Source: Bacillota bacterium
GTDB taxonomy: Bacteria > Bacillota > Limnochordia > DTU087
Direction: 5' to 3'
Length of the DNA stretch: 46,132 bases
Assembly (NCBI GenBank): GCA_012798955.1
Contig: JAAZMF010000177.1
Span: forward strand, 1 to 46,132
Shown here: piece after piece, positions 23,053-46,132 of the stretch
Layout of the letters: the number at the start of each line of letters is the position of its first letter
How positions within the stretch are numbered: the first letter of the stretch is position 1
The notes under the pieces: model-generated
What the model was told of the DNA's origin: nothing
What the model saw: only the letters and a program-made list of their open reading frames with translations
Databases searched by the model: none
Made by a program: the position numbers and the translations under genes

Positions 23053-23068
23053 TGTTCCACGTGGAACA
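23053..23068. promoter_or_regulatory. parS: parS site 1
   Basis: TGTTCCACGTGGAACA, a perfect 16-bp palindrome of the parS consensus (TGTTNCACGTGNAACA). The symmetry extends to 18 bp (23052-23069). It lies about 1.2 kb from parB. ParB binds it and spreads, loading SMC/condensin near the origin. Confidence 0.93.
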
Positions 23069-23267: not shown

Positions 23268-23283
23268 TGTTCCACGTGGAACA
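23268..23283. promoter_or_regulatory. parS: parS site 2
   Basis: The same perfect 16-bp core as site 1; here the symmetry extends to 22 bp (23265-23286). The core is identical at both sites while flanks differ, consistent with selection on the ParB recognition core. Confidence 0.93.
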
Positions 23284-25117: not shown

Positions 25118-25872
25118 GCCCCAATCAACTCCCTAGCCAAGTCCCTGTAAGCTTGGGCGCCACGGCAATGCTGATCATACAAAGTGATGGGTTCCCCATG
25201 ACTAGGCGCTTCACTCAATCGCACATTTCTAGGTATGACGGTATTGAAGACCCTATCTCCAAAAAAGCGCCGTACTTCGTCCACTACCTGTTGAGACAAA
25301 TTGGTACGAGCATCAAACATAGTCATTAGGACCCCGCCTATTTCCAGAGCAGGATTCAAGTGTTCCCTTACTAGCCCCACAGTCCCCATAAGTTGGCTTA
25401 CCCCTTCCAAAGCATAATACTCGCATTGAATGGGAATCAGTGCTGCTGTAGCAGCACTTAGAGCATTAATAGTCAACAACCCCAAGGAAGGTGGAGCATC
25501 AATAAGGATATATTCGTACCTATCATGGATGGAGTTCAAAGCATCCTTTAGTCTGTACTCCCTTGACATGGTTGAAACCAATTCAATCTCTGCGCCGGCC
25601 AACTCTAAAGTAGCCGCTGCCACATCTAACCCAGGGATAGCTGTTGACTGAATGACCTCCTCAATAGGCCTACCCTCAATGAGGACATCATACATACAGC
25701 CTTCCACTTGGTTTTTCAACACCCCAACTCCACTACTAGCATTTCCTTGGGGATCGATATCTACCAGAAGTACCCGCTTACCTAACTCCGCCATACAGGC
25801 ACCCAGGTTCACTGCCGTAGTGCTTTTGCCAACACCGCCTTTTTGATTCACTATCGCTAGACATGTGGCCAA
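25114..25872 (-). CDS. parA: Chromosome-partitioning ATPase ParA (Soj)
   Basis: Deviant Walker A ATPase that binds DNA as a dimer, partners ParB, and in Bacillus regulates DnaA. NQKGGVGKSTTAVNLGA at residue 9 has the signature lysine, with LLVDIDPQGNASSGVG (Walker A'), YILIDAPPSLGLLTINAL (Walker B) and IPRNVRLSEAPSHGEPI. 252 residues. Start TTG 25872 after GGGGTGA. It follows noc by 45 bases. Confidence 0.97.
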   Translation of the reverse strand: MATCLAIVNQKGGVGKSTTAVNLGACMAELGKRVLLVDIDPQGNASSGVGVLKNQVEGCMYDVLIEGRPIEEVIQSTAIPGLDVAAATLELAGAEIELVSTMSREYRLKDALNSIHDRYEYILIDAPPSLGLLTINALSAATAALIPIQCEYYALEGVSQLMGTVGLVREHLNPALEIGGVLMTMFDARTNLSQQVVDEVRRFFGDRVFNTVIPRNVRLSEAPSHGEPITLYDQHCRGAQAYRDLARELIGA

Positions 25873-25917
25873 CTCTATTCACCCCACCCTCGGCCTTTTA
25901 CCCCCTACGGTCAATGC

Positions 25918-26778
25918 CTAAATATTGTTAGTGGTTCTTCTAATCCTGATCTGCATCTCCAATATGTCCTCGGTCTTTGACTCTTCCAGCTCCACTTCCG
26001 CCCCACCAGCACGCATCTCTTTAACCAATTGTCTAACACTGTTTTGAAGGAGTCGGGCATCACGCCAAAGCTTTGTGACTTTCTGCTGGGGTGATCGCCG
26101 CTCCGTGCCCTCCCGTATACGCTTCACCAACTCTTCTGTTTCTCGAACTGAAAGCTGTCCTTCCCGTACTGCATCAACCACCTGCAACTGCTGGGCTTCT
26201 GAATCTAGGCTCAACAAGGCGCGGCAGTGACGTTCGGTCATTATTTCCCGGGAAATACGTTCCCTCACCTGTGGGCTCAAACGTAGGAGCCTTAGCTTGT
26301 TGGCAATAGCCGATTGGCTTCTTCCAATGCTCTGGGCTAGCTCTTCCTGGGTCATCCCAAATTCCTGAAGCAAGCGCTGGTATGCAATGGCCTCTTCCCA
26401 GTAATCTAGATCCTCCCTCTGCAAATTTTCAATGAGGGCAATCTGTGCACTAGTGGCATCATCTAGTTCTCTAACCACGGCAGGGATAGCATCCCAGCCA
26501 AGATATCGAGCGGCTCTAACTCGCCTCTCACCGGCCACTAACTGGTACCCACCGGGACAGGTACGCACAATAATAGGCTGAATCAGACCGTGCTCATCCA
26601 AAGATTGAGCCAACTCCTCTATATCCTCTTCCGTAAAAGTAGAGCGTGGCTGAAAGGGGTTCGCCTCGATCTTTGCCAAAGGGATTTGTCGAATTGCATC
26701 CGCTTCCTTGGTCATATGGGTGTCCTGTATCTGCTCAACGTTCTTAACTCGCGCCTTAAGGACATCACCTAAGCGCAT
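25918..26778 (-). CDS. noc: Nucleoid occlusion protein Noc (ParB paralogue)
   Basis: ParB-like CTPase that binds Noc-binding sites and blocks division over the nucleoid. It has ENLQREDLDYWEEAIAYQRLL, GERRVRAARYLG and the helix-turn-helix MTQEELAQSIGRSQSAIANKLRLLRL. The order rsmG-noc-parA-parB is the canonical one. Its C-terminal half (RRSPQQKVTKLWRD...) differs from ParB. The N-terminus MRLGDVLKARVKNVEQI could form an amphipathic helix, as needed for membrane binding, but differs from the B. subtilis one. 286 residues, ATG 26778 after GGGGAGG. A perfect Noc-binding palindrome lies inside the gene at 26242-26257. Confidence 0.9.
   Translation of the reverse strand: MRLGDVLKARVKNVEQIQDTHMTKEADAIRQIPLAKIEANPFQPRSTFTEEDIEELAQSLDEHGLIQPIIVRTCPGGYQLVAGERRVRAARYLGWDAIPAVVRELDDATSAQIALIENLQREDLDYWEEAIAYQRLLQEFGMTQEELAQSIGRSQSAIANKLRLLRLSPQVRERISREIMTERHCRALLSLDSEAQQLQVVDAVREGQLSVRETEELVKRIREGTERRSPQQKVTKLWRDARLLQNSVRQLVKEMRAGGAEVELEESKTEDILEMQIRIRRTTNNI
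26242..26257. promoter_or_regulatory. Noc-binding site (NBS) inside noc
   Basis: The 16 bases TATTTCCCGGGAAATA contain the complete B. subtilis NBS consensus ATTTCCCGGGAAAT (14/14). The site codes for part of ERISREIM within noc itself. Confidence 0.85.
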
Positions 26779-27733: not shown

Positions 27734-29614
27734 TTACTCCGTATGCCCATCTCTTCTGCTCCTACCCCGACGCTCCAAGAAAATCATTAGCACCGAGATG
27801 TCTGCCGGTGACACACCTGCAATGCGTGATGCTTGACCTAGAGAATCTGGCCTTACCTCTGTAAGCTTTTCCTCCGCCTCTTTGGAGAGACCTACTACTT
27901 TGGAATAATCGATCCATTCCGGTAAAGCCCTAGCTTCCATGGATTTGAATCGCTCCACCGACCGCCGCTCCTTGCGGATGTATCCTGCGTATTTGATCTC
28001 AACCTCCACCAGATCCTGTAGCTCCCCATCAAGACCACTATCCCACCCAAGAGTGGCTAGTTGCTGGTAGCGTATCTCGGGCCGCCGAAGCAACTCTTCC
28101 CCTGTTACCACCTGATTAGTAGGTGTACTGCCTATGGCCTGCAAAGTAGAATTCACGTCCTCTGATGGCGTTAGCCTCCAACTGGCAAGATCCCTGATCT
28201 CCCTCTCCACAGCCTCCCATCTTCGCTGCATCTGCTCATATCGTTCTTCTGACAAAAGGCCAACCCTTTTGCCATAATCGCCTAAGCGCCGGTCTGCATT
28301 ATCTTGTCTCAGCAACAGTCTGTACTCAGCCAATGAAGTCATCATACGATAAGGCTCGTGGATGGCCTTTGTCACAAGATCATCGATCAGCACACCGATA
28401 TAGGCTTCGTCACGGCCCAAGATCAAAGGCTCCTCTCCTCTAAGGCTGAGACCACAATTAATTCCCGCCATAATGCCTTGGGCGGCAGCTTCTTCGTAAC
28501 CGGAACTACCGTTAATCTGGCCGGCAAAATACAATCCCGGAATCTCTTTAGATTCTAAATTGAGCTTTAGCTGGTGAGGTCCTAAGCAATCATATTCAAT
28601 TGCATAAGCTAGCCGCAGAATTTCTACATCCTCAAGCCCAGGAATACTCCGCACCACTTCCATCTGGACATCTGCAGGTAGACTAGTTGAGACCCCACTA
28701 AGGTAGACTTCCTGTGTATCCCAGCCCTCCGGTTCAACAAATACTTGATGAGATTGCTTATCCGGAAACTGCACTATCTTACTTTCGATTGATGGACAAT
28801 ATCTAGGCCCGATGCCTTCGATGGCTCCTCCATATAGTGCAGTGCGATTTAGGTTTCGAGAAATAATCTCGTGGGTCTGGGGTGTTGTATACGTAAGCCA
28901 GCACGGTACCTGCTCCTTTGGCTCCAGTACCTTGGCAAAGGAAAAGCCCCGCAAAAGATGCTGACCCGGCATCGGTGTCATTTTATCATAGTTAAGAGAA
29001 CGACTATTAGCCCGGGGTGGGGTGCCCGTCTTGAACCGAATTAGCTCAAATCCCAGTTCTTCCAAGCTATTGCTCAATCCATAGGTGGTTTGCTGTGCCT
29101 GGGGTCCTGACTCATAGTGAATTTCACCTACATGGATCATAGACCGCATGAAGGTACCATTGGCCACAATCACGCATTGACCCTGTACTTTTTCACCTGT
29201 ACGAAGGGCTACACCCCACACTCTCCCCCCTTTAACAATGATGGTCTCCACACAAGCCTCCCGAAGGAATAGCCCTGGTTGTCTCTCCAGCAGTTGCCTC
29301 ATGCTCCACGAGTATAACTTCCGATCTGTTTGGGCTCGCAAAGCCCGCACCGCCGGCCCCTTTTTAGTATTTAGGAGGCGCAAATGCATATATGCCCGAT
29401 CTGTATTACGCCCGATCTCGCCGCCTAAGGCATCTATCTCCCTTACAATATGGGCTTTACCCGGTCCTCCAATAGATGGATTACATGGCATCATAGCCAC
29501 ACTATCTAAGGCCAAAGTATAAACAGCCGTGCGAAATCCCATACGGGCAGTTGCCAGAGCGGCTTCACATCCCGCATGCCCAGCACCCACAACAATCACA
29601 TCGAATTTCTCCAC
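27734..29614 (-). CDS. mnmG: MnmG-type tRNA wobble-modification protein, copy 1 (canonical-like)
   Basis: FAD-dependent partner of MnmE that installs the cmnm5 group on U34 of certain tRNAs. The FAD-binding [17 protein letters not shown] begins at residue 11. It retains the conserved cysteines in PCNPSIGG and RYCPSIES, the KTGTPPR motif, and the C-terminal [20 protein letters not shown]. 626 residues, full length including the MnmE-binding C-terminal domain. GTG 29614 follows GGGTGA. It sits between a second MnmG-type gene and rsmG. Its sequence around [16 protein letters not shown] and [12 protein letters not shown] looks like the Bacillus-type enzyme. Not TrmFO, which is about 440 residues. 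Confidence 0.92.
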
Positions 29615-29657: not shown

Positions 29658-31532
29658 CTACTGCATCTTTGTTTGCTTGAGCCAAATCTGTAATGCCGCA
29701 ATATCACTTCTGCTAATTCCTGGTATCCGGGCCGCCTGCCCTATAGATGTCGGGTGCACCTTCTCAAGCAAATCAACGGCTTTACCGTCAAGGCCCCTTA
29801 TCTGCCCGTATTCTATATCCGAAGGTATTGCTTGCCTTTCTAACTTCTCCATACCCTCCATCTGTCTACGCTCTCTTGCTAGGTACCCCGCAAACTTGAC
29901 CTCGATCTCAACCTGCTGTTTGATCTGCCTGTCCAACTCGGGGATTTCAACACCCACCATAGTCAAATCGTCATAGGCTAACTCAGGCCTTTGCAAAATC
30001 TCGGCAGCACTCACTGCCTTAGCAAGATCGCCACTACCCAAAGCGATTAATGCTTTTCTCACCGCTTCCACCGGAGTCACCATGATATTTTCTAGTCGGG
30101 CAATCTCCTGCTTAATCAAGTCCCGCTTTCTTTGAAAGCGATTGTAATCGGCTGCACTTAAGAGCCCCAGATTGAAGCCATATTCCGCGAGCCGCAAGTC
30201 AGCGTTATCTTGTCGAAGACTCACACGATATTCAGCTCGGGATGTCATCATCCGATATGGTTCATCGACACCCTTAGTTACGAGATCATCAATAAGAACA
30301 CCTATATATGCATCCCGGCGACTGGGGACAAAAGGTGCTAATCCCTTAACCATACGGGCAGCATTAATGCCAGCCACTATTCCCTGGGCGGCGGCTTCCT
30401 CATATCCGGAAGTACCATTGATCTGACCTGCTGTAAACAACCCCTTGAGTCGCTTACTCTCCAGGGAAGATTGAGTCTGCCAGGGATCAATAAAATCGTA
30501 TTCAACAGCATAGGCCGGCCGCATGATTTTTGCATTCTCCAATCCGGGAATAGTATGCAATAGCGCTACCTGAACATCTTCTGGCATGCTCGTTGTTAGA
30601 CCTAACATATAGAGCTCGGTGGTAGCGCGCCCCTCTGGTTCCAGAAAAATCTGATGATCGGTCTTATCGGGGAAACGCATGACCTTGCGATCAATCGATG
30701 GGCAAAAACGCGGCCCCTTCGTAGACACCAGACCTGTTTGAATGGGTGAACGATGTAGATTTGCCCTGACAACTTCAATGGTATCTTCATTGGTGCTCGT
30801 CAAATAGCAGGGCAATTGCGGGTGCTCAACCCTAGGCTCCCAGAAGGAAAACTGCAGAGGCTCCTCAGCACCTTGTTGCTCGGTTAATTTGGTCAAATCA
30901 ACGCTACGGGCATCGAGCCTGGGGGGTGTCGCGCTTTGAAAACGACGCAGTGAAAAACCGGCATCCAAAAGGCTCTCCGATAGCTCTGTAGCGCTAGGCT
31001 CACCTTGTCTGCCACCCGGATACTGGATTTCGCCTACAACAATATAACCATTGAGGAAAGTACCAGTACACAAGACTACCGCCACAGCCTCCATGACGGT
31101 ACCCATTTTGGTCTTAATCCCACAGACTCGGCCATCGCGCCTAAGTATCTCGGTGACTATACCTTGCTTGACATCTAATCCCGGCTGATTCTCTAGGGTT
31201 TCAATCATGACATTTTGATAGCGGCGCTTATCGGCTTGAGCCCGCAGGGCGTGGACTGAAGGTCCTCTGGAAAGATTTAGCATGCGAATATTAAGGTACG
31301 CAGCATCGATTACCCGACCCATCACCCCGCCCAGAGCATCTATTTCCCGAACCAGATGACCCTTGGCGGCTGGCCCCCCTATAGCCGGATTACACGAGAG
31401 TTGAGCGATGGTATCTAGCTGCATAGTGACCAGAGCGGTACTACAGCCTAGGCGGGCAGCTGCCAAAGCTGCCTCACACCCTGCATGCCCTCCCCCCACA
31501 ACAATCACATCATACTTATATAAAGCCTCCAC
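29658..31532 (-). CDS. mnmG: MnmG-type tRNA wobble-modification protein, copy 2 (divergent)
   Basis: A second full-length MnmG-type protein (624 residues), homologous to but clearly different from copy 1. [17 protein letters not shown] is the FAD site; the essential cysteines in SCNPAIGG and PRFCPSID are kept. It differs in conserved places: an extra alanine in [10 protein letters not shown] and QSATPPR where KTGTPPR is nearly universal. The DNA confirms both changes are in frame. Segments such as [18 protein letters not shown] resemble the proteobacterial pattern more than copy 1. GTG 31532 begins 10 bases after the mnmE stop. It may form a heterodimer with copy 1, or have a separate tRNA set; inference. 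Confidence 0.9.
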
Positions 31533-32939: not shown

Positions 32940-33002
32940 CTTGCCACTCCTTCTCCATCACTATTTCATGGGATTACCTCCACCAAACGGCATGAGAAGC
33001 GC

Positions 33003-33036
33003 AAAAGAGGAACGCGTCAATCTAGACACGCTCCTC
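33003..33036 (-). terminator. Rho-independent terminator after jag
   Basis: A 12-bp stem (two G-U pairs; arms 33036-33025 and 33018-33007) with a 6-base loop, then TTTT. It ends the rpmH-rnpA-yidD-yidC-jag transcript. Confidence 0.85.
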
Positions 33037-33078
33037 CCCATTTGTGGGTATTTACCAAGCCCTAGAGCAGCTCTCTCT

Positions 33079-33714
33079 TCACCGGTTGCGTCGAGGAGCA
33101 ATTACCACCCTGCGGAAAGGGGCCTCCCCCTCACTATGGGTGTGAACGGCTCTATCGTCCTCCAACGTCAAGTGGATAATCCTCCGCTCCATGGCGTTCA
33201 TGGGATCGAGCACCGCCCGTCGCCCAGTTCGTTTTACACGATCCGCTAACCGCAAGGCGAGATTCTCTAGGGTCTTAGCCCGTCTATCTCGATACCCCTC
33301 AGCATCTAGTATTACCCGAATCCATTCATTGTTGCGATTCATGGCCAAACTGACTACATACTGAAGGGCGTCGAGGGTCTCGCCTCTTCGACCAATCACA
33401 AGGCCCAATTCATTACCATCAATACAGATCTTAAGTACATTGTCAGGTTCCCATTCGTAACCCACAGTACATACTAATCCCATGCGTTCCAGTATCCCCT
33501 GCAAAAACTCAACGGCGGCTTTGGCCCTCTCTTCTTTCTCGTCCCGAACTGTTACCCGCACCCTGGCCTGCTTGCCACCAATCAAGCCCAAAAAGGCTTT
33601 GGCTCCCTCTTCGAGCACTTCTATTTCAACATTGTCCCGAGAAGTCTGCAGTTCCTCGAGTGCCTCGGCTATAGCATCTTCCACAGACTTCGCCGAGCGC
33701 TCAATGCTCTTCAT
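33079..33714 (-). CDS. jag: RNA-binding protein Jag (KhpB/EloR)
   Basis: Domains: an N-terminal Jag domain (residues about 1-52, beginning MKSIERSAKSVEDAIAEAL and ending GLIGGKQARVRV), a type II KH domain with LVIGRRGETLDALQYVVSL, and an R3H domain ending in MERRIIHLTLEDDRAVHTHSEGEAPFRRVVIAP. It binds RNA and is linked to cell elongation. 211 residues. It starts 2 bases after the yidC stop, the usual arrangement. Confidence 0.96.
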   Translation of the reverse strand: MKSIERSAKSVEDAIAEALEELQTSRDNVEIEVLEEGAKAFLGLIGGKQARVRVTVRDEKEERAKAAVEFLQGILERMGLVCTVGYEWEPDNVLKICIDGNELGLVIGRRGETLDALQYVVSLAMNRNNEWIRVILDAEGYRDRRAKTLENLALRLADRVKRTGRRAVLDPMNAMERRIIHLTLEDDRAVHTHSEGEAPFRRVVIAPRRNR

Positions 33715-33716
33715 GT

Positions 33717-34334
33717 CTATGCATTCCCTCCTTCTTGAGGGTTCATTCTCTGAGCAATCACATATTGCTGACCCATGGAAAACAGATTACTTACAACCCA
33801 ATAGATAACTAATCCCGCAGGGAAATTTATGCTGATATAACCGATAAACGCTGGCATAATATACATCATGGATTTCTGAGATGCATCCGCACTGGTCATA
33901 ATCATTTGAAAATACGTCGTCAAAGCGGAAAGCACCGGTAAGATATAGAGTGGATCTGGCGTGCTGAGGCTCGTCAGCCAAAGAAACCCGGTACCAAATT
34001 CGAACCCTCTTAATACCGCAAACAAGGCCCAAAGAAAAGGAAGCTGCACCAACATAGGTAGACAACCCCCTAGCGGATTCACCTTGTTTTCTTTATATAA
34101 CTCCATGACCTTACGCTGGTATTCCTCGGGTTTATCCTTGTATCTCTCCTGTAAAGCCTGCATTTCAGGTTGCATGCGCTTCATAGCTTCCATAGACTTG
34201 CTTTGGCTAAAAGTCAGTGGAGCTAGAAGCAACCGAATAGCCAGCGTAAGCAAGATGATAGCTATACCATAGCTACCACTCAAATCATAAAAAAACCTTA
34301 ACAGCCATTCAAGTGCGGTATTCAATACTCCCAA
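33717..34334 (-). CDS. yidC: Membrane protein insertase YidC/SpoIIIJ
   Basis: Oxa1-family insertase of 205 residues. Helices: SYGIAIILLTLAIRLLLAPLTF (with the conserved arginine in the groove), then MQPEMQALQERYKDKPEEYQRKVMELYKENKVNPLGGCLPMLVQLPFLWALF, and two later helices. It starts without an obvious lipoprotein signal, unlike B. subtilis SpoIIIJ. Start TTG 34334 with GGAGG 8 bases upstream. In spore formers it is also required for forespore development. Confidence 0.96.
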   Translation of the reverse strand: MGVLNTALEWLLRFFYDLSGSYGIAIILLTLAIRLLLAPLTFSQSKSMEAMKRMQPEMQALQERYKDKPEEYQRKVMELYKENKVNPLGGCLPMLVQLPFLWALFAVLRGFEFGTGFLWLTSLSTPDPLYILPVLSALTTYFQMIMTSADASQKSMMYIMPAFIGYISINFPAGLVIYWVVSNLFSMGQQYVIAQRMNPQEGGNA

Positions 34335-34362
34335 ACAGTCCGCCTCCGATCCGCCATCTCCA

Positions 34363-34575
34363 TCATTTTACAGGGTCATAGCCACCTGACCCCCAAGGGT
34401 GACAGTGTAAGATCCTCTTTCCCAGCATTCCGAGCCCCCGCCAGACCCCGTACTTCTCCACGGCTAAGAGTCCGTATTCCGAACAGGATGGATAGAATCG
34501 GCACCTAGGCGGTAATAGTGGGGAAATACACAATTGATATATTCGAATGGAGCCCATCACTATCGCCTTAATCAT
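34363..34575 (-). CDS. yidD: Membrane protein insertion efficiency factor YidD
   Basis: A 70-residue basic protein with the conserved YQLCISPLLPPRCRFYPSCSEYGLLAVEKYG, and HPWGSGGYDPVK at the end. It helps membrane protein insertion together with YidC. ATG 34575 is preferred because it begins MIKAIVMGSIRIYQ as in the family; the frame is open to 34617. It lies between rnpA and yidC, the canonical order. Confidence 0.95.
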   Translation of the reverse strand: MIKAIVMGSIRIYQLCISPLLPPRCRFYPSCSEYGLLAVEKYGVWRGLGMLGKRILHCHPWGSGGYDPVK

Positions 34576-34618
34576 CCCGACTTCCACCACCCACCTCGTG
34601 TAGATGCTACATTTCAAA

Positions 34619-34963
34619 TCAGCACGATATCAAATCGGCACGATCTAAGACCTCGCTAAGGGCCCGTACTATGTCCTGGTATGTAGCATCCCGGCACTGA
34701 ACCCGGGCAGATACAACCAAGTCATAACCAACTTTCAAGTCCGACGCCTTGGTGCGCATAGCTTCCCGTAGTCGCCGCTTTGTGCGGTTTCGAACAACCG
34801 CATTACCGATCTTCTTGCTTACCGAGAAACCTACTCGGCTCATGTCTTCGCCATTGGCTAGATAGTGTAAGACAACTAGCCGATGCTTTACTACACCACC
34901 TTGGGCATAGACCCGCCGAAAGTCAGCTGGGAGTGCCAATCGCTCCACTAGCTTCACCCTCAT
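34619..34963 (-). CDS. rnpA: Ribonuclease P protein component
   Basis: Binds the RNase P RNA and helps process tRNA 5' ends. Segments: ADFRRVYAQGG, RVGFSVSKKIGNAVVRNRTKRRLREAMR (the RNR motif), and DLVVSARVQC. 114 residues from ATG 34963, which has a poor ribosome site. GTG 34948 has GAGGGTGA upstream and gives 109 residues, also plausible. It follows rpmH by 25 bases. Confidence 0.96.
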   Translation of the reverse strand: MRVKLVERLALPADFRRVYAQGGVVKHRLVVLHYLANGEDMSRVGFSVSKKIGNAVVRNRTKRRLREAMRTKASDLKVGYDLVVSARVQCRDATYQDIVRALSEVLDRADLISC

Positions 34964-34988
34964 TTATTAGGTAACCCAGGCAGTAAAC

Positions 34989-35123
34989 CTAGGCAGACAA
35001 AGTCCGTCTTCCCTTTCTCATCCGACGCTTCAATACGTTGCGACCGGCTTTAGTCTGCATCCTGGCCCGAAAACCGTGGTTCTTTTTCCTCCGTCGCCGA
35101 TTAGGTTGATAAGTGCGCTTCAT
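34989..35123 (-). CDS. rpmH: 50S ribosomal protein L34
   Basis: A 44-residue highly basic protein starting [18 protein letters not shown] and ending [13 protein letters not shown] 35123 has GGAGGTGG upstream. A canonical origin-proximal gene, driven by the promoter at 35237-35266 and heading the rpmH-rnpA-yidD-yidC-jag unit. Confidence 0.98.
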
Positions 35124-35236
35124 ACCTTCGCCACCTCCCACCAACACCCTTCAATGTACTGATTGTTTTTTGCTGGCAATAAACAACTCTAGCAATGGCT
35201 GATAATAAGGGCACAATCCGACCACATATCATAACG

Positions 35237-35266
35237 ATTATAGCAAGGCCCACTTTAACCTGTCAA
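35237..35266 (-). promoter_or_regulatory. Strong sigma-A-type promoter of rpmH
   Basis: Minus strand: -35 TTGACA (35266-35261), 18-base spacer, -10 TATAAT (35242-35237). Both hexamers are perfect, the strongest promoter seen in the window. Confidence 0.9.
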
Positions 35267-35375
35267 CCCTAGCACTTTCGCCCTATTATGCCCCCTTTGT
35301 GCATTCCTTCACCCTCCCTAACCGATTATATCCCCAGCTGCGGATTGCCGTTAAATAAAGCTTTTCAAAAGGGCC

Positions 35376-35569
35376 TGTGGATAACCTTTCCTTCCAGCTA
35401 GAAGAGCTGCCTCTTCAGTGTTCCACAAGAAAATCCCAGCTAAAAACACTTTACTCCTCGGGGACCCTTGTGGATATCCTGTGGAACCTGAGGATAACTT
35501 CTGGGGAGAAGTAGTGAGTTTTCAATTCACAGGCCCAACCTGTGGAAAACCTGTTGATACTGTGGATAA
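35376..35569. other. oriC: oriC part 1: DnaA-box cluster between rpmH and the ATPase gene
   Basis: In the TGTGGATAA orientation (reverse of TTATCCACA), exact boxes are at 35376-35384 and 35561-35569. One-mismatch boxes are at 35469-35477, 35489-35497 and 35541-35549; weaker ones lie around 35552-35560. All point the same way. From 35570 to 35790 only weak boxes are seen (35601, 35651) and no convincing sigma-A promoter. Confidence 0.85.
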
Positions 35570-35806
35570 CATCCCTGGTTTTCGGCCTCGATTCCTAAAC
35601 AAATCCACACCATACAAGGATTTTCCGAAAACCCGTCGAAATCATTTCTCTGTGGTAAACTCTGGGGAATTGCTGTGATCATGGCGTTTTGCCACTCCAC
35701 AAGGAAGAAAAGCAATCTGGCACATGTTGCCTTGAACTGACCTTTTCATTTTTCATTTTCCAAGAACGGGATAGTCTCATGGGGGTGAAAAAGGAGGTGA
35801 CAACCT

Positions 35807-36781
35807 ATGTTAAGGTTTATAAAAAAACGCCAAAAGCCGACATCTACGTCTCAGAATCGCATTTTTCAAGGCCTTATCGCTTATGAAGTCACAAAAGGCG
35901 AATTGCCCAAGATCATAGCTGTTAATGATATGCTACCCCAAGGATTTGTGGAAAAAATGATAAGCACCACGTGTCAGATACTACAAGAAAAGGATTCGCC
36001 TATTCCCGGCCTAATCGTAGAGGAATTGGTCACAAATTTGGCCCACGGGGAATTTGCCCATCCGGTCATTACCATTAGCTATGATGGCCGCCAAATGACT
36101 GTTAGTGATCAGGGACCGGGAATCCCTAGCAAAGAAAACGCAGTGAAGCTAGGCTACTATGGTAAACCACCTAAGTTCACTCCTTCCCAGATGCGGGGTG
36201 TAGGAGTAGGATTGCCAATGGTCCGTAAGATGCTGACGTCCATAGAAGGTAAGCTCTTGATCTCAGATAACCTTGGAGGCGGAACAGTCGTAAGAATTTG
36301 GATTCCTCCAGAGATGGTTGACGATACCCGGGAGTCCGAGGAGCTACAAGGGCCCAAAGCCCCGGTAGAACAAGGGTTTCCTCCGCTTTTTGAGCCCGAA
36401 AATGCTCCTACAGAGGAAGGAGATTCTCCTAGGAGGACAGAATCATATATCGAGCGAACCTCGGACGAACGGGGACTAAGCCGAAGTAGTAAAGATGAGT
36501 ATGAGCCCAGTTTGCTGGGCACAGAAGGGCCCGCTGTGGCAGAGGCCCTATCTGATCTACAGACAAAGCTGTCGCGGCGACAGCGTAGAGTTCTGTTCCT
36601 CGTGGCCGATCTTGGGGAGGTAGGACCCTCGACGGCATCGACTGAATTGGACATGTCACTAAGCACGGCTTTCCGAGATCTCGTTACCTTAGAAGAGATG
36701 GATCTAGTTCAATCCGATGAGAATGGTAAGCGGAGCCTTACGCCACTTGGCGCTCGCGTTATAGCTGCGTTGACTGCATAA
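35807..36781 (+). CDS. GHKL-type ATPase fused to a winged helix, between the two origin halves
   Basis: 324 residues. N-terminal ~30 basic residues, then a histidine-kinase-type ATPase fold (about 30-168) with the N box (VEELVTNLAHGE, residues 71-82), G1 box (VSDQGPGI, 99-106) and G2 box (RGVGVGLPMVR, 130-140). There is no phospho-acceptor histidine domain and no transmembrane segment, so it resembles anti-sigma kinases or an isolated ATPase rather than a sensor kinase. Residues 170-250 are a disordered, acidic, Pro/Ser-rich linker. Residues 252-324 form a winged helix (RRQRRVLFLV...STASTELDMSLSTAFRDLVTLEEMDLVQ). ATG 35807 has the perfect site AAGGAGGTGA, 6 bases upstream. It ends 58 bases before dnaA and is probably cotranscribed. 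I do not know its function. Confidence 0.85.
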   Translation: MLRFIKKRQKPTSTSQNRIFQGLIAYEVTKGELPKIIAVNDMLPQGFVEKMISTTCQILQEKDSPIPGLIVEELVTNLAHGEFAHPVITISYDGRQMTVSDQGPGIPSKENAVKLGYYGKPPKFTPSQMRGVGVGLPMVRKMLTSIEGKLLISDNLGGGTVVRIWIPPEMVDDTRESEELQGPKAPVEQGFPPLFEPENAPTEEGDSPRRTESYIERTSDERGLSRSSKDEYEPSLLGTEGPAVAEALSDLQTKLSRRQRRVLFLVADLGEVGPSTASTELDMSLSTAFRDLVTLEEMDLVQSDENGKRSLTPLGARVIAALTA

Positions 36782-36839
36782 TGCAAACGCAAGCAAAAGG
36801 ATAGCTCCGCTAGTTTCTTACTGTCAGGAGGAGTCTGGC

Positions 36840-38276
36840 ATGCAAGAAAGTTTGGCTTCTATATGGGAGGAAACACTTGCCCGCATAGAACCATTGATGC
36901 CTCAATCTAGCTTTAGCACCTGGTTAAAAGGTACTCGTCCTATAACCCTTAATCAAAATGTGCTGTATATCCATATTACTAATGAATTTGCTAAGGATTG
37001 GGTGGATTCTCGCTACAAGGAGCCGATGCAACAGGCCCTGCAAAAGATGGTGGGTCAGAAATGGCAATTGGAATTCGTTCTTCCGGGAGCACCAGTTCCG
37101 GAAAGTCCGCAAAATGGAGGACAAGCCAAACCCGAGCTAAGCAATTTCATCACCAACACACAGGCGGGTAACCCACCCGTTAATCAAAGACCAGGGCAAG
37201 AGGCTACCTTGGAAGTACCGTTTACTAACGTTGTCACTGACGAGATAGTTCCCGGAATCCTTAACCCCAGATATACCTTTGATACCTTTGTGGTTGGCAA
37301 CAGCAATCGATTTGCCCATGCCGCCTCCTTAGCAGTAGCCGAAGCCCCAGCCCGTGCCTATAACCCTTTGTTCGTATATGGCGGGGTGGGCCTTGGCAAA
37401 ACCCACCTAATGCAGGCTATAGGACATTACGCTCTAGAGCATAATCCCCAGTCAAAAGTGGTTTATGTCTCTTCAGAGAAATTTACCAATGACCTAATTA
37501 ATGCCATAGGCAAGAAAGCCATGGTGGAATTCCGTGCCCGCTACCGCAACGTAGATGTGCTTTTGATTGACGATATCCAGTTCGTAGCCGGCAAGGAGAG
37601 TACCCAGGAAGAATTTTTTCATACGTTTAACGCACTCTATGAAGCGAATAAGCAGATAGTCATGACTAGTGATCGCCCTCCAAAAGAGATTCCGACCTTA
37701 GAAGATAGACTCCGTTCAAGATTCGAATGGGGATTAACCACGGATATTCAGCCACCGGATTTGGAGACCAGGATCGCTATCTTGCGCAAAAAGGCGGCCA
37801 CAGACAATCTGGAGATTCCCGAAGAGGTACTAAGCTATATCGCCAACCGGGTACACTCCAATATTCGAGAACTTGAAGGTGCCCTAAATCGCGTGATGGC
37901 GGTAGGATCCTTAAGCCGCCGAGATATTACTATAGAAGTGGCAGAGGAAGGCTTAAAGGATATTGTCAGCTCGGCTAGGCAAAAGCAGATCACCATTGAT
38001 GCAATCCAAAACGTTGTAGCCAGCCATTATTCCATCAAGGTGGCCGATATGCGTAGCAAGAAACGCACACGGGTTGTAACTTTCCCCCGTCAAGTTGCCA
38101 TGTATTTGGCCCGAGATCTCACCGACGCTTCTTTACCTCGGATTGGGGACGAGTTTGGTGGTCGCGATCATACAACAGTTATCCATGCGTGCGACAAGAT
38201 TCAGCGGGCCCTACAAAAAGACCCAAGCCTCCAGAGAGAGGTTAATCAGATTATTCAGCAGCTTCGGAATCCGTAG
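36840..38276 (+). CDS. dnaA: Chromosomal replication initiator DnaA
   Basis: AAA+ initiator that binds DnaA boxes and opens the origin. Domain I: residues 1-85 (MQESLASIWEETLARIEPLM). A variable domain II follows (about 86-135). Domain III has Walker A GGVGLGKTHL at 181-190 and VDVLLIDDIQFVAGKE. Domain IV has the DNA-binding signature GGRDHTTVIHACDKI. 478 residues. ATG 36840 has CAGGAGGAG upstream. A box cluster lies on either side of it and its upstream ATPase gene. Confidence 0.98.
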   Translation: MQESLASIWEETLARIEPLMPQSSFSTWLKGTRPITLNQNVLYIHITNEFAKDWVDSRYKEPMQQALQKMVGQKWQLEFVLPGAPVPESPQNGGQAKPELSNFITNTQAGNPPVNQRPGQEATLEVPFTNVVTDEIVPGILNPRYTFDTFVVGNSNRFAHAASLAVAEAPARAYNPLFVYGGVGLGKTHLMQAIGHYALEHNPQSKVVYVSSEKFTNDLINAIGKKAMVEFRARYRNVDVLLIDDIQFVAGKESTQEEFFHTFNALYEANKQIVMTSDRPPKEIPTLEDRLRSRFEWGLTTDIQPPDLETRIAILRKKAATDNLEIPEEVLSYIANRVHSNIRELEGALNRVMAVGSLSRRDITIEVAEEGLKDIVSSARQKQITIDAIQNVVASHYSIKVADMRSKKRTRVVTFPRQVAMYLARDLTDASLPRIGDEFGGRDHTTVIHACDKIQRALQKDPSLQREVNQIIQQLRNP

Positions 38277-38326
38277 GCGCCGGGCTTAATTTTCCCAACG
38301 AATTTTCTGTGCCTGTGGAGGATTAT

Positions 38327-38413
38327 CTAGATTTACTGATTCAGATCTATATAGATCTAAATATAGTAGTCGTAGTAGTAGGGCCTGTGGAAATGTGGAA
38401 AGCGTGTTATAAT
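38327..38413 (+). other. oriC: oriC part 2: candidate basal unwinding system (AT-rich, DnaA-trios, DnaA boxes)
   Basis: AT-rich DNA at 38327-38363 includes the perfect 16-bp palindrome AGATCTATATAGATCT (38343-38358). Six trinucleotides TAG TAG TCG TAG TAG TAG follow at 38364-38381, then GGCC (38382-38385), then boxes TGTGGAAAT (38386-38394) and TGTGGAAAG (38394-38402). This is the order AT-rich, DnaA-trio, GC, DnaA box described for Bacillus. Further boxes: TTTTCCACA at 38468-38476 and TTATCCAGA at 38516-38524 (each 8/9). Confidence 0.75.
38385..38413 (+). promoter_or_regulatory. Candidate dnaN promoter overlapping DnaA boxes
   Basis: -10 TATAAT (38408-38413) with a weak -35 CTGTGG (38385-38390) at 17-base spacing. 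The -35 lies on the DnaA box 38386-38394, so DnaA binding could repress it. The weak -35 keeps confidence low. Confidence 0.45.
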
Positions 38414-38561
38414 CCAGCAAGACAAGGGCAAGTCAGTGTGGGTAAGCTGTGGAAGGTTGAGTTCAAGTTTTCCACATATACACACAGGATGTGAGGGAGA
38501 GAAAGAGTACACAGTTTATCCAGATGCCATGCACATCTTTTTCAACAGGGGGCATTGAGTG

Positions 38562-39665
38562 ATGCAATTTATTGGCATGCAAGGTGAATTATTGCGATGC
38601 CTACAGACGGTGGAGAAAGCAGTGGCAACTCGAGATACTTCACCAGCACTGACAGGTGTCTATATGGAGTGTGAAGACGGACGACTTGTGGTGAGGGCTT
38701 CAGATTCTGAGTTGACTATAGAAGCCCACGCACAAGTTGAAGTAGCTCGGGAAGGCAACGTCATATTAGAGGCGAAATTTTTCATACCTCTAATCAGACG
38801 TTTACCGGCGGGGGAGGTAATAGTTAAGTTTCTCCCAGAACAACAGATGCTTGAGATTGCCGCCGGCAACGGAAACTTTAGGTTGCAGACAATGGTTGCC
38901 GAAGAGTTTCCCAAATTGGATATTAGTGGGCGGGAGCCGCTTGCTAACTTACCGAGTCATTTATTGGCCAAGATGATTAAGCAAACTGTCTATGCTACTA
39001 GGAAAGAACAAGGACACAGTGCTTTCACGGGGATTCTAATGGAGTGCTCGTCCAACGAGATTAGGCTCGTGGCCACCGATAGTAGTCGTTTGTGTTTTAA
39101 TCGTCAGGGAATTCCCCAGGGGAATGACTTCAGATTCATTGTGCCTGCCAGAACATGTAGTGAATTGTTGCGCATCTTACCAAGTGAAGAGGAAGCTTTC
39201 GTCGAGATCTCTCTTCTGGGAAACCAAGTGGTTTTTTCCCTAGATGATGCAATAGTTGTCTCGCGACTACTAGAGGGGCAATATCCAGATTATAATCGGG
39301 TGATTCCAAAGGGTACGGATGTGGAGATTGTCGCCCTTTGCTCAGAGCTTGCTGCCGCTTTAGAGCGGGCTAATCTTATGGGCAAGAAAGGTCCTGCTAT
39401 TGTTACTTTTGATCTAGAAGAGGGGCTATTGAATCTACGATCTCGGGATCCTGATCTTGGGGAATCGAAAGAAATTCTTAATGTAGAGCACACAGGAGAC
39501 GGGGTAAAAAGCTCTTTTCAGGCTAGGTTTGTGCTGGAGATGTTAAGGACGGTAGAGAGTGATAAGGTCACCATTGGACTTAGCAATGGACTAAATCCTG
39601 GGATTATTCGGCCTGAGGATAGTGAAGACTACTTGTATGTAATCATGCCGGTACGGACAGTTTGA
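38562..39665 (+). CDS. dnaN: DNA polymerase III beta subunit (sliding clamp)
   Basis: Ring-forming processivity factor; three repeated domains of about 120 residues each. MQFIGMQGELLRCLQTVEKAV, ILMECSSNEIRLVATDSSRL, EGQYPDYNRVIPK and the C-terminal YVIMPVRTV are typical. 367 residues from ATG 38562; GTG 38559 is the alternative. AGGGGG lies about 9 bases upstream. Confidence 0.97.
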   Translation: MQFIGMQGELLRCLQTVEKAVATRDTSPALTGVYMECEDGRLVVRASDSELTIEAHAQVEVAREGNVILEAKFFIPLIRRLPAGEVIVKFLPEQQMLEIAAGNGNFRLQTMVAEEFPKLDISGREPLANLPSHLLAKMIKQTVYATRKEQGHSAFTGILMECSSNEIRLVATDSSRLCFNRQGIPQGNDFRFIVPARTCSELLRILPSEEEAFVEISLLGNQVVFSLDDAIVVSRLLEGQYPDYNRVIPKGTDVEIVALCSELAAALERANLMGKKGPAIVTFDLEEGLLNLRSRDPDLGESKEILNVEHTGDGVKSSFQARFVLEMLRTVESDKVTIGLSNGLNPGIIRPEDSEDYLYVIMPVRTV

Positions 39666-39682
39666 CAGATCGAGGGTGTTGT

Positions 39683-39913
39683 ATGAGAATGGAAGAGTAC
39701 ACTGATGTCAGGATAATCACTGACACTATAAAGCTTGAGCAACTACTGAAGCTAGCAGGCATTACCGCTACTGGCGGTGAGGCTAAGCTGATTATTCAGG
39801 GTGGCGGGGTATCGGTAAATGGGGACGAAGAACGGCGCCGAGGTAAACAGCTTCGGGCCGGTGATATGGTGGATATAGAAGGCCGGGGGCGGCTACGGGT
39901 TGTTCAGGGCTAG
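39683..39913 (+). CDS. yaaA: S4-domain protein YaaA (RlbA-type)
   Basis: 76 residues with an S4 RNA-binding fold: TIKLEQLLKLAGITATGGEAK, GGGVSVNGDEERRRGKQLRAGDMV. The gene sits in the conserved dnaN-yaaA-recF order. ATG 39683 follows GAGGGTG by 4 bases; ATG 39689 is also possible, and TTG 39662 overlaps the dnaN stop by 4 bases. Its role (ribosome-associated in Bacillus) is not tested here. Confidence 0.93.
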   Translation: MRMEEYTDVRIITDTIKLEQLLKLAGITATGGEAKLIIQGGGVSVNGDEERRRGKQLRAGDMVDIEGRGRLRVVQG

Positions 39914-39930
39914 AGTTGGGAGTGCCAAAT

Positions 39931-41061
39931 GTGCATGTAAGAGCCTTGGAATTAAGCCATTACAGGAATTACCGGCATTTGGTCGTAAATCTAGATCCTT
40001 GTCTTAATATTTTTGTAGGTGATAACGCTCAAGGCAAGACCAATCTAATGGAATCAGTCTATCTTCTGGCTACCGGTCGATCCCATCGGACATTTCGGGA
40101 TACGGATTTAATTAGTTGGGACGGAGAAGAGGCGCAGATTAAGGCCCAGGTTGAATCAGGCATGGGCAGTTTTACCATGCGGGTGATTCTAGCCCGCAAT
40201 CATCGGAAGCGCTTCTGGGTGGGTGGAGAGGAGCTTCGTCGGCAATCAGAGTTGCTTGGATATGTGAACGTTGTTTTATTTTGCCCCGATGACTTGCAGT
40301 TAGTTAAGGGTAGTCCAAGCCTCCGGCGGCATTTTATCGATCTATGTTTGGCTCAAGTGAGCAAGGTATATCGCCATGATCTAGTGAGCTATAATAAGGT
40401 GCTACAGCAAAGAAATAACTTGCTCAAAGATACCGTTGGGGACAGAGGACGGGCTGATCTTTTATCGATTTGGGATGAACAGCTAATCCAGTATGGTAGT
40501 CAGGTAATGCATCGTCGAGCACTAGCCATAGAGTTGATGGCTAAATTCGCTGCCGCTAGTCATAGCAGAATTAGTGGCGGTGATGAGATATTAGGTATGT
40601 GTTACCAGCCATTCTATGGTAATATGAGAAAAGTCACCAGCTCCATATCGCAGGAGGAGATTGCCCAGGAGTTTGCCAAGGCACTAGATAGGAATAGACC
40701 CCAGGAACTGAGACGGGGAACTACTCTGGTAGGCCCCCAAAGGGATGATATTGTCTTTGAGATAGATGGCAAAGATGCCCGCCAATTCGCTTCCCAGGGA
40801 CAGCAGCGGACAGTAGTTCTGGCCACTAAACTCGCCGAGCTAGAATTCATGCGTGAAGAGGTGGGTGAATACCCGATTTTGCTGTTGGATGATGTGCTGT
40901 CGGAATTGGATTTTTCCCGTCGCTCGGCGTTTCTTGAAACCATTGGTAACAAGGTGCAGACATTGCTGACCACAACTGATAGAGGTAGTTTCCGATCCAC
41001 TGATCTGATGCGATCCCAGGAATATACCATTAGTGAAGGTCAGCTAATCTCGGAAGGGTGA
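39931..41061 (+). CDS. recF: DNA replication and repair protein RecF
   Basis: SMC-like ABC ATPase acting in gap repair. Walker A GDNAQGKTNL, GRSHRTFRDTDLI, the signature region RQFASQGQQRTVVLATKLAELE and Walker B ILLLDDVLSELD are all present. GTG 39931 is preferred because GGGAG lies 8 bases upstream and the protein starts VHVRALELSHYRNY (376 residues). TTG 39916 is in frame but has no ribosome site. Confidence 0.97.
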   Translation: MHVRALELSHYRNYRHLVVNLDPCLNIFVGDNAQGKTNLMESVYLLATGRSHRTFRDTDLISWDGEEAQIKAQVESGMGSFTMRVILARNHRKRFWVGGEELRRQSELLGYVNVVLFCPDDLQLVKGSPSLRRHFIDLCLAQVSKVYRHDLVSYNKVLQQRNNLLKDTVGDRGRADLLSIWDEQLIQYGSQVMHRRALAIELMAKFAAASHSRISGGDEILGMCYQPFYGNMRKVTSSISQEEIAQEFAKALDRNRPQELRRGTTLVGPQRDDIVFEIDGKDARQFASQGQQRTVVLATKLAELEFMREEVGEYPILLLDDVLSELDFSRRSAFLETIGNKVQTLLTTTDRGSFRSTDLMRSQEYTISEGQLISEG

Positions 41062-41066
41062 TCAAT

Positions 41067-41324
41067 TTGTTTGTTCATCTTGGGAAAAACGCTGTAGTGC
41101 GTTCTAACCAGATAGTGGCCATTATTGATTGGCAGACCTTGCAGGATTCTGAGGTCAATCAGGCTTACATGGAGCGGGTTAACCAAGGCCAAAAGATTAA
41201 GGATGTCTCTGGTGGTCGCCCAAATTCTATGGTTATCACCGGTGATGATATATACCTGTCAACTATTTCCAGCACGACCCTGAAGAAGCGGGCTGAAAAC
41301 CCGCAATACCTAGCCTGCGACTAA
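41067..41324 (+). CDS. remB: RemB/DUF370-family extracellular-matrix regulator homologue
   Basis: 85 residues in the usual place between recF and gyrB. TTG 41067 is preferred: the product then begins FVHLGKNAVVRSNQIVAIID, matching RemB (which starts MYIHLG), and GGAAGG is 8 bases upstream. GTG 41058 overlaps recF by 4 bases. The RemA/RemB fold (DUF370) is DNA-binding in Bacillus. The C-terminus ITGDDIYLSTISSTTLKKRAE is of RemA/RemB type. Confidence 0.9.
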   Translation: MFVHLGKNAVVRSNQIVAIIDWQTLQDSEVNQAYMERVNQGQKIKDVSGGRPNSMVITGDDIYLSTISSTTLKKRAENPQYLACD

Positions 41325-43289
<1,965 letters not shown>

Positions 43290-43322
43290 AGGGCCCAGCC
43301 GCAAAGAGGTGAAAAACAAGAC

Positions 43323-45752
43323 ATGGATCTTTTTAATCATAAAATAATTCCAGTTGGTATTAAAGAACAGATGAAGACATCTTACTTGCGCTATGCCATG
43401 TCAGTTATAGTCGATCGGGCCCTACCTGATGTGCGAGATGGTCTAAAACCAGTTCAACGACGAATCTTGTACAGTATGAGTGAGTTGGGCATGCGCCCCG
43501 ATCGCCCCCATAGGAAGTCAGCCCGTATCGTGGGAGAAGTAATCGGTAAGTATCATCCCCACGGTGAGTCGGCCATCTATGATGCTATGGTGCGCATGGC
43601 CCAAGATTTCTCCTTTCGATATATGTTGGTGGATGGCCATGGAAACTTCGGTTCCGTTGATGGTGACCCGGCCGCGGCCATGCGTTATACGGAAGCAAGA
43701 ATGTCGAAGCTAGCCGAAGAAATGTTGCGGGATCTAGATAAGGATACCGTAGACTTTATGCCGAACTTCGATGATAGCCTAGAACAACCGCAAGTACTTC
43801 CCTCGCGGTTTCCCAATATGCTCGTCAATGGTGCCTCTGGTATAGCAGTAGGTATGGCGACAAATATACCACCCCACAATCTGGGTGAGGTGATTGACGG
43901 CCTTGTCATGTTAATAGACAACCCGGATCTACCAGTTAAAGCCCTACAGAAGGCTGTTAAAGGGCCGGATTTTCCCACTGGTGGGATTATTCTTGGCAGA
44001 GAAGCCATTGATGAGGCTTATGCCACCGGCCGAGGTCGTATTCGGATGCGGGCCCGAGTTCAATTAGAGCAGCTATCAAATGGGAGAACCCGTATAGTTG
44101 TCACAGAACTCCCTTATATGGTGAATAAGGCTAATCTCATTGAGAAAATAGCCCATCTAGTTAGGGACAAGCGGATCGAGGGTATCACTGATCTCAGAGA
44201 TGAATCTGATCGAACAGGCATGAGGATCACCATAGAAATTCGTCGGGACACAAATCCCCATGTGGTGCTCAATCAGTTATACAAACATACCCAGCTTCAG
44301 GAGACCTTTGGTGTGATTATGCTTGCCCTAGTAGATGGTCAACCTCAAGTATTGACCCTCAAAGAGGCTATGCAGTACTATCTAGATCATCAGAGAGAAG
44401 TTGTAACTCGTCGCACTCGTTTTGAGTTGCGCAGAGCTGAAGAGCGGGCACATATCCTGGAAGGCTATCGTATTGCCCTTGATCATATTGATGAGATTAT
44501 CCGGTTGATAAGAGGCTCTTCCAGTGATCGTGAGGCTAGGGAAGGGCTAATTAGTCGCTTCGGCCTTACCGAAAAGCAAGCCGTGGCCATCTTGGATATG
44601 CAGCTGCGGCGTTTGACGGGTCTAGAAAGAGAAAAAATCGAAAGTGAATATGCGGAACTACTCACTAAGATTGCTCGCTATAGGGAGATCCTGGCAGATG
44701 TCAAGGAAGTTTATGGGATTGTTCGAGAAGAGCTGCTAGAGATCAAAAGTAAATACAGTGATCCCAGGAGAACTGAGATTACCGGCCACTCCGGTGATAT
44801 CCAGATTGAGGACTTGATTGCCGACGAAGACATAGTCGTCACCTTGACCCATCAAGGCTATATCAAGCGAATCCCAGTTAACGCCTATAGAAGTCAGAGG
44901 CGAGGTGGGAGAGGTGTTACGGCCCTTACTATGAAGGAAGAGGATTTTGTCGAGCACCTCTTCGTTACTTCGACCCATGCTCATATCGTCTTTTTCACCA
45001 ATAAGGGAAGGATGTATAGGCTCAAAGGCTATGAGATTCCTGAGGCGGGTCGACAGGCTAGAGGTGTGGCCATAATTAACTTGATTCAGATTGAACCAGG
45101 AGAAAAAGTGCAGGCAGCCATTGTCATCAGTGAATATGGTGACAGTGAATATCTGTTGATGGGAACCAAACAGGGTCGTGTAAAAAAGACGGCTCTTCAG
45201 GAATTTGACAGCCCCAGGGTAGGACTGATTGGTATCGTTTTGGAGGAGGGGGACGAACTCATTGGAGTGAAGATTACCGGAGGCGATGAGGAGATCCTCC
45301 TGGTAACGAGTGAGGGTATGTCCATTCGCTTCAGTGAAAAAGAGATCCGGCCAATGGGCAGAGCTACCATGGGGGTTAAAGGTATCACCCTAGATGAAGG
45401 CGATGAAGTTGTTGGTATGAATGTGGTTGAGCCCGATGCCAAATTACTGGTTGTAACCGAGAAAGGCTATGGGAAGCGTACAGATCTAGCCGAGTACCGC
45501 TCCCAGGGCCGCGGTGGTAAGGGCATTAAGACTATTAATCAGACTGAGAAAACTGGCAGTATTGCTGGGGCTAAGGTGGTAAGGGAAGGCGAAGAACTCA
45601 TGATCATCAATTCCCAGGGATTGATGATTCGCCAGCCGGTATCAGATATATCTGTTTATGGACGTAATACCCAGGGTGTCAAGCTAATGCGAGTTGAGGA
45701 CGACGATGTGGTTGTGGCCATTGCCTTAATGGCTGGTCAGGAAGATGAATAG
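43323..45752 (+). CDS. gyrA: DNA gyrase subunit A
   Basis: Breakage-rejoining subunit. Active-site tyrosine in [11 protein letters not shown]. The quinolone region [17 protein letters not shown] has serine and aspartate at the resistance positions 83 and 87 (E. coli numbering), so no sign of the common resistance changes. The C-terminal pinwheel contains the GyrA box QRRGGRG, which marks gyrase rather than topoisomerase IV. 809 residues; AGAGGTGA upstream of ATG 43323. Confidence 0.98.
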
Positions 45753-45781
45753 CTTTAGGTGAGAAATGCCAAGATGGGTGG

Positions 45782-45813
45782 ACAAAGGCTGGGTCTATTG
45801 ATCCAGCCTTTGT
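45782..45813 (+). terminator. Hairpin after gyrA
   Basis: An 11-bp perfect stem (ACAAAGGCTGG with CCAGCCTTTGT) and a 10-base loop, 29 bases past the gyrA stop. It lacks a following T-run, so it may act as a pause, stabilising or weak-termination hairpin. Confidence 0.45.
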
Positions 45814-45909
45814 GGAAGGGGAGTAGGGATTGTCGAAAACTCATCCCAGCAAGTAGTATTACCGTAATAGGTCTTTCTTGTCTAGTATGTTCTGGAAGTT
45901 GGCGACCTA

Positions 45910-45938
45910 TTGCTTCCTCCCATAGACTGTGGTAGAAT
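45910..45938 (+). promoter_or_regulatory. rRNA operon promoter
   Basis: -35 TTGCTT (45910-45915), 17-base spacer, -10 TAGAAT (45933-45938). It is about 140 bases upstream of the 16S gene, as expected. The inverted GCGACC/GGTCGC (45902-45907, 45955-45960) flanks it. Confidence 0.7.
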
Positions 45939-45982
45939 AGACACTACCAACGGGGGTCGCTAGGCCTCTAGATTGACTTGAA

Positions 45983-45998
45983 CCTTGAAAACTGAACA
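45983..45998 (+). other. Conserved rRNA leader segment
   Basis: CCTTGAAAACTGAACA, a motif widely seen in Firmicute rRNA leaders and spacers, where it contributes to pre-rRNA pairing and processing. It supports the rrn assignment. Confidence 0.65.
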
Positions 45999-46077
45999 GC
46001 GTAATAAAAAGAAAGCTTGTGCAGCCAAAGTTTGAAAGCAAGCCAGAATCATGTACCGGTAGGGATATAGATAAATC

Positions 46078-46132
46078 TTTAACGGAGAGTTTGATCCTGG
46101 CTCAGGACGAACGCTGGCGGCGTGCCTAATAC
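46078..46132 (+). rRNA. rrs: 16S ribosomal RNA, 5' end (cut by window edge)
   Basis: The universal 5' sequence including AGAGTTTGATCCTGGCTCAG (the 8-27 region) begins at 46086, followed by GACGAACGCTGGCGGCGTGC. Mature start is estimated at about 46078. Only 55 bases are in the window, too few for taxonomy. Confidence 0.97.

Follow-up and report, generated by a model that had tools for sequence, protein, structure and literature searches.

A GHKL ATPase-winged-helix protein encoded between rpmH and dnaA is a candidate regulator of DnaA or the replication origin across several Bacillota lineages

In the window (the whole stretch of 46,132 nucleotides that was analysed, from a Bacillota bacterium), the interval between rpmH and dnaA holds a gene whose product joins a GHKL ATPase to a C-terminal winged helix. 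Full-length orthologues of this gene, here called ATPwH, were found in 53 genomes belonging to 14 families, one per genome. ATPwH is likely to be an unrecognised control protein for the start of replication or for the production of DnaA. The locus is laid out as follows.

34989 to 35123, minus strand: rpmH, the divergent neighbour on the other flank (from its translation)
35784 to 35806, plus strand: Shine-Dalgarno region AAGGAGGTGA, 5' of the ATPwH start (from the sequence)
35807 to 36781, plus strand: ATPwH, 324 aa (open reading frame, Shine-Dalgarno, orthologues and dN/dS)
36782 to 36839, plus strand: gap of 58 bp between ATPwH and dnaA, holding the dnaA Shine-Dalgarno, with no terminator on the plus strand
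36840 to 38276, plus strand: dnaA (NCBIfam TIGR00362, 602 bits)

The open reading frame of 324 codons begins with an ATG preceded by AAGGAGGTGA; its Shine-Dalgarno is a perfect match, and the region is kept as GAAAAGGAGGT among relatives. A frame of this length, a ribosome site before it and a stop 58 bases ahead of dnaA had been described in an earlier sequence-only reading of this DNA, and all three were found as claimed, the gap to dnaA being exactly 58 bp. Across carriers this gap has a median of about 54 nt and is at most 100 nt in 33 of 37, with one overlap; it is longer in one family of the class (f6) and in one other case. With so short a gap in almost every carrier, and no terminator predicted on the plus strand between the two genes, co-transcription of ATPwH and dnaA is likely, and ATPwH is the probable first gene of the dnaA operon. 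On the other flank, the rpmH promoter (TTGACA-18-TATAAT, 35237-35266, minus strand) is consensus-perfect with an extended -10 and is kept in carrier lineages. An Rfam search of 33000-46132 returned no match.

Orthologues were sought by single-sequence and profile searches, in six frames over whole genomes, in 73 genomes of the window's class, probably Limnochordia, and in 399 genomes sampled evenly across the phylum, mostly MAGs. Within the class ATPwH is carried by 18 of the 73 genomes, comprising all 11 of the window's family (f1), all three of f3 and all four of f6. The phylum sample added 35 genomes from 11 further families; other matches there at the same threshold, which either had stops or were restricted to the GHKL region, were left out of the count. 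The window genome holds one copy, its sole other match being a weak one to the GHKL region, and viral relatives are limited to a GHKL-region match at 27% identity. In 53 of 53 carriers, each locus having been inspected, the gene has dnaA, rpmH or both as neighbours, and the order is rpmH (divergent), ATPwH, dnaA, dnaN. One contig (G010) stops after ATPwH, with dnaA beyond its end, in another genome (G046) the gene is divided between one contig that carries rpmH and a second that carries dnaA, and a few draft contigs are truncated, so that rpmH or the 5' part of ATPwH is missing. No copy away from the rpmH/dnaA locus was found by six-frame search of the whole genomes of the 53 carriers, so the expectation that orthologues would stand beside dnaA across Bacillota rather than scattered was upheld. 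This strict linkage argues that the function of ATPwH is tied to dnaA or oriC. Linkage alone could also mean co-expression with dnaA and not action on it.

ATPwH is absent from 55 of the 73 class genomes, sister family included. In 20 class genomes that lack it, the rpmH-dnaA interval spans 405-871 bp where measurable, bears DnaA boxes and contains no credible gene. Since non-carriers keep a box-rich interval of the same size, roughly 600 bp, that is geneless, ATPwH can be placed after the upstream half of the origin and ahead of dnaA. On the DnaA tree, the carriers group strongly together, but their distribution needs four changes, at least two of them forced by well-supported branches. On the ATPwH tree, each of f1, f3 and f6 forms a monophyletic group, and one clade uniting the class sequences is not rejected (p-AU 0.34). 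The two trees fit a gene of old age that was passed on largely by vertical descent and lost in places; transfer is also possible.

The product can be divided into three parts.

35867 to 36313, plus strand: GHKL ATPase domain, residues 21-169 (Pfam PF02518, invariant columns)
36314 to 36520, plus strand: acidic low-complexity linker, residues 170-238, fast-evolving and differing in length between families
36521 to 36778, plus strand: C-terminal winged helix, residues 239-324 (Pfam HVO_A0261_N, HTH_IclR and TrmB-type matches)

HATPase_c (PF02518) matches residues 68-169 at 8.4e-12, with 46 bits against a gathering cut-off of 26.4, and it was matched in 36 of 36 orthologues, whose alignment was used to read residue conservation. 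The N box comprises E73, N77 and H80, the G1 box D101, G103 and G105, and the G2 box G131, G133 and G135. Invariant across the alignment are N77, D101, G103, G105, G131, G133 and G135; the catalytic Glu, E73, four residues before the N-box Asn, is kept in at least 90% of members and is missing in f6. By its N, G1 and G2 boxes and catalytic Glu, ATPwH is assigned to the GHKL superfamily, and the same motifs suggest that it would bind ATP. The linker carries 18 D/E against 8 K/R, and a structure model is of low confidence at residues 169-251. Pfam matches to the winged helix, at residues 256-322, lie below cut-off (HVO_A0261_N 2.2e-6; HTH_IclR 6e-4) and are consistent in 31 of the 36 orthologues; R258, Q259, S284, R290, K308 and R309 are invariant, and the domain is 89-99% identical within the window's family. 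The architecture proposed earlier, with intact boxes and an acidic linker joining the ATPase to a winged helix, is thus recovered, the boxes being invariant or nearly so and the winged-helix matches falling just under cut-off. Structure prediction from a two-sequence alignment gave a pLDDT of 49 for the full-length protein and 38 for the GHKL domain alone, and a fold search returned no match at E <= 0.001. No NCBIfam model exceeded its cut-off for ATPwH. PHROGs and PADLOC gave only partial-domain matches, with CARF-wH/CasR winged helices making up those from PADLOC, and no model in Pfam, NCBIfam, PHROG or PADLOC covers the fusion.

Within f1, the winged helix has a dN/dS of 0.02-0.07 and the GHKL domain one of 0.07-0.13, against 0.5-1.6 in the linker. 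By these ratios strong purifying selection maintains both domains and leaves the linker free. It could be supposed that ATPwH is a degenerate histidine kinase remnant or a passenger gene, unimportant for dnaA and kept by chance, since its GHKL domain is near kinase catalytic domains and its presence is patchy within the class. Such an origin is scarcely credible for a protein with low dN/dS and invariant motifs whose two domains are conserved together in 14 families and which keeps the same position in 53 genomes. Silent-site divergence is lowered over ATPwH codons ~198-324 and dnaA codons 1-40 (pS 0.20-0.35 vs 0.44-0.71 elsewhere). This stretch of lower divergence, 36400-36960, belongs essentially to one genus of the window's family. 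An overlapping cis element at the 3' end of ATPwH and the start of dnaA was considered and set aside, as the signal did not recur in other lineages.

Profile matches of the GHKL domain to PDB structures span kinases (1.8e-7), SpoIIAB (1.8e-5) and MutL (6.7e-5), and point to no single subfamily. The histidine kinase catalytic domain (PF02518) is the best Pfam match, but ATPwH differs from histidine kinases in lacking a DHp domain, a sensor and a membrane segment, and no His is conserved ahead of its N box. The earliest His of the protein, residue 80, falls in the N box itself, which leaves no phospho-acceptor His upstream of it, and its highest 19-residue hydropathy is 0.88, so it has no membrane span; both features agree with the earlier reading. 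Pfam detected no HisKA (DHp) match in ATPwH, and no DHp domain was found hidden in the N-terminus. Assignment as a histidine kinase was therefore rejected.

A second possibility is that ATPwH is a partner-switching protein like SpoIIAB or RsbW, whose GHKL domain would chiefly bind or phosphorylate a protein (e.g. DnaA, or an anti-sigma or anti-anti-sigma factor), with the winged helix making a secondary contact to DNA or protein. Over its full length the GHKL domain aligns with SpoIIAB of the class (hhalign probability 97.6%, E 1.6e-11, with a small SpoIIAB alignment), the ATPwH profile matches the solved SpoIIAB structure, and the two share a Bergerat-fold ATP site, a Glu at N-4 and the lack of a DHp domain or phospho-His. 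However, histidine kinase structures match as well or better, the N-box His of ATPwH is at N+3 and not N+4, and HATPase_c_2 (PF13581) is matched in only 6 of the 36 members. The curated spIIAB model is not among the NCBIfam matches over cut-off for ATPwH. ATPwH also adds a linker and a winged helix, and it lies at dnaA and not in a sigma operon; its neighbours are rpmH and dnaA, with no SpoIIAA-like (STAS) or sigma gene beside it. Moreover, the winged helix is the most conserved domain of the protein, which points to DNA. Partner switching is thus unlikely, though not negligibly so. Spo0A scores over its cut-off in 69 of the 73 class genomes, with or without ATPwH, which gives no sign of a role devoted to sporulation. 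The window genome encodes a separate full-length SpoIIAB elsewhere, and the suggestion of a role in a sporulation sigma/anti-sigma cascade is accordingly unsupported. A link between Spo0A boxes (TGTCGAA) and ATPwH was not consistent.

It has also to be considered that ATPwH serves origin architecture or segregation, with the winged helix holding DNA, a MutL/GyrB-like GHKL domain acting as an ATP clamp and an N-terminal amphipathic segment as a membrane tether in some lineages. Its N box, E-[LIV]-x-[ET]-N-L, resembles that of MutL, whose PDB matches lie at residues 73-133, and many orthologues outside the window's family have hydrophobic-cationic N-termini, e.g. MFGLIAKLFRK and MAGVFSRLFRKG, which could form an amphipathic membrane or docking helix. 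The window's family has only a degenerate form of that segment and f6 lacks it, the helical moment of the window protein (0.52) is within background (90th percentile 0.62), and ParAB/Noc are already encoded in the same region, which leaves this role improbable. An N-terminal amphipathic helix in the window protein itself, a weak candidate with a helical moment of that size, was not retained. Hydrophobic-cationic N-termini occur in L115, L117, L118, L123-L127 and others, e.g. MFGLIAKLFRKSKE and MTSLFSRLFGKR.

Around ATPwH and dnaA, the following origin elements were recognised.

35376 to 35569, no strand assigned: oriC1-like DnaA-box cluster, with exact boxes at 35376, 35541 and 35561, all on the minus strand
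38343 to 38402, no strand assigned: oriC2-like unwinding site, with a palindrome, a DnaA-trio-like run and two DnaA-box-like sites
38343 to 38358: perfect 16-bp palindrome AGATCTATATAGATCT, beside the DnaA-trio-like run
38364 to 38381: DnaA-trio-like run TAGTAGTCGTAGTAGTAG, beside DnaA-box-like sites in the dnaA-dnaN gap

Box spacing in the oriC1-like cluster is kept within the window's family. The interval upstream of ATPwH holds 8 DnaA-box-like sites with at most one mismatch (11.7/kb over a background of 1.6/kb), a further 7 fall in the dnaA-dnaN gap (24.8/kb), and one exact box (35947-35955) lies inside ATPwH itself. The cumulative GC-skew minimum is at 35650, 157 bp before the ATPwH start. 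The origin order rnpA-rpmH-oriC1-dnaA-oriC2-dnaN is conserved in Firmicutes, with bipartite origins in B. subtilis and C. difficile (PMC7561715). The window resembles these in having DnaA-box clusters on both sides of dnaA and a DnaA-trio in the dnaA-dnaN gap; given its box-rich upstream interval and its box-rich gap with a DnaA-trio-like run, its origin is of the bipartite Firmicute kind, but with an extra conserved gene between oriC1 and dnaA (PMC7561715). ATPwH does lie between two box clusters, as had been stated, but so does dnaA, as in an ordinary bipartite origin; the new point is the added gene between the upstream cluster and dnaA.

Other features were observed nearby. Origin-proximal soj/spo0J-type ParA and ParB genes and a second ParB-like gene passing the Noc model lie at 24257-26778 (minus strand). 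Downstream of parA/parB, identical perfect palindromes TGTTCCACGTGGAACA are found at 23053-23068 and 23268-23283, differing from the parS consensus by one mismatch. Two full-length mnmG (gidA) genes in tandem at 27734-29614 and 29658-31532 (minus strand) share 48% identity and both score over the TIGR00136 cut-off. In two f3 genomes (L039 and L042), the gyrB match is broken at residue 517 by ~930 bp extra, possibly an intein or insertion.

Altogether, ATPwH seems somewhat more probably than otherwise to be a one-component, ATP-responsive, DNA-binding regulator of the dnaA operon or oriC. The layout of a sensor with a winged helix argues for a DNA-binding one-component regulator, and the ATP site suggests gating by a nucleotide or a partner. 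The GHKL domain would bind ATP, with hydrolysis probable in lineages that have the catalytic Glu; nucleotide or partner state would be relayed via the flexible linker to the winged helix, which would bind DNA at the rpmH-dnaA locus. As probable first operon gene, ATPwH would feed back on its own transcription and that of dnaA; alternatively or also, it may act on DnaA loading at the adjacent DnaA-box cluster. The gene, its domains and motifs, its strict linkage, the short gap to dnaA and purifying selection are the observed basis of this proposal, from which we infer co-transcription, ATP binding, DNA binding, a target (operon promoter or oriC) and a direction of control. As a counterpoint, ATPwH has been dispensable over evolution, and f6 does without the catalytic Glu.

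Across families, no word or palindrome upstream of ATPwH or in the dnaA-dnaN gap emerged as an operator common to carriers, and upstream footprinting recovered only the rpmH-promoter-like GCTATAAT and DnaA-box words. The palindrome AGATCTATATAGATCT was rejected as a general winged-helix target because it is confined to the window's family, where most members have it. At four loci of f76 (L116, L127, L129 and L134) a different palindrome, GTACATATGTAC, is present or approached in a similar place. The earlier idea of an ATP-dependent switch acting on the origin or on DnaA expression is compatible with the linkage to dnaA in every carrier, but has gained no conserved operator. Linkage and operon structure are silent on the site of action, and with no operator found at the locus ATPwH might be a general transcription regulator of unrelated genes, merely co-expressed with dnaA. 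Against this, it is never found away from dnaA and divergent members keep its position, and we regard such a role as very unlikely.

Among known regulators, CARF-wH Csa3, TrmB and IclR likewise combine a sensor domain with a related winged helix in one chain, and the Csa3 winged helix is among the best NCBIfam/PADLOC matches to ATPwH. In contrast to these, the sensor of ATPwH is a GHKL ATPase beyond a long linker, and the gene is fixed at the origin. Regulators of DnaA in Bacillus include YabA, Soj, DnaD, CcrZ and SirA (PMC13220808). ATPwH would share with them the control of DnaA or oriC, but none is described in that source as a GHKL-winged-helix protein or as encoded between rpmH and dnaA (PMC13220808). 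YabA (PF06156) was found in none of the 73 class genomes, although the control search picks it up in B. subtilis and L. lactis; the class thus does without the known YabA brake. ATPwH itself has no PF06156 match. No description of ATPwH was found in the literature outside subscription sources; its parts are of known kinds, and their fusion and fixed position appear to be undescribed.

What is known of how DnaA is restrained in Firmicutes comes largely from the Bacillus and Lactococcus models. For origin annotation, ATPwH breaks the textbook adjacency of rpmH and dnaA on which it relies. Tentatively, and at somewhat under even chances, this undescribed ATP-sensing DNA-binding family may be a dedicated initiation regulator in several Bacillota lineages, encoded at the origin, co-expressed with DnaA and conveying the state of its nucleotide or partner to oriC or to the dnaA promoter, in hosts that lack YabA. 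In this YabA-less class, ATPwH is a concrete candidate, open to test, for a protein that would couple chromosome initiation to energy state or to a protein signal.
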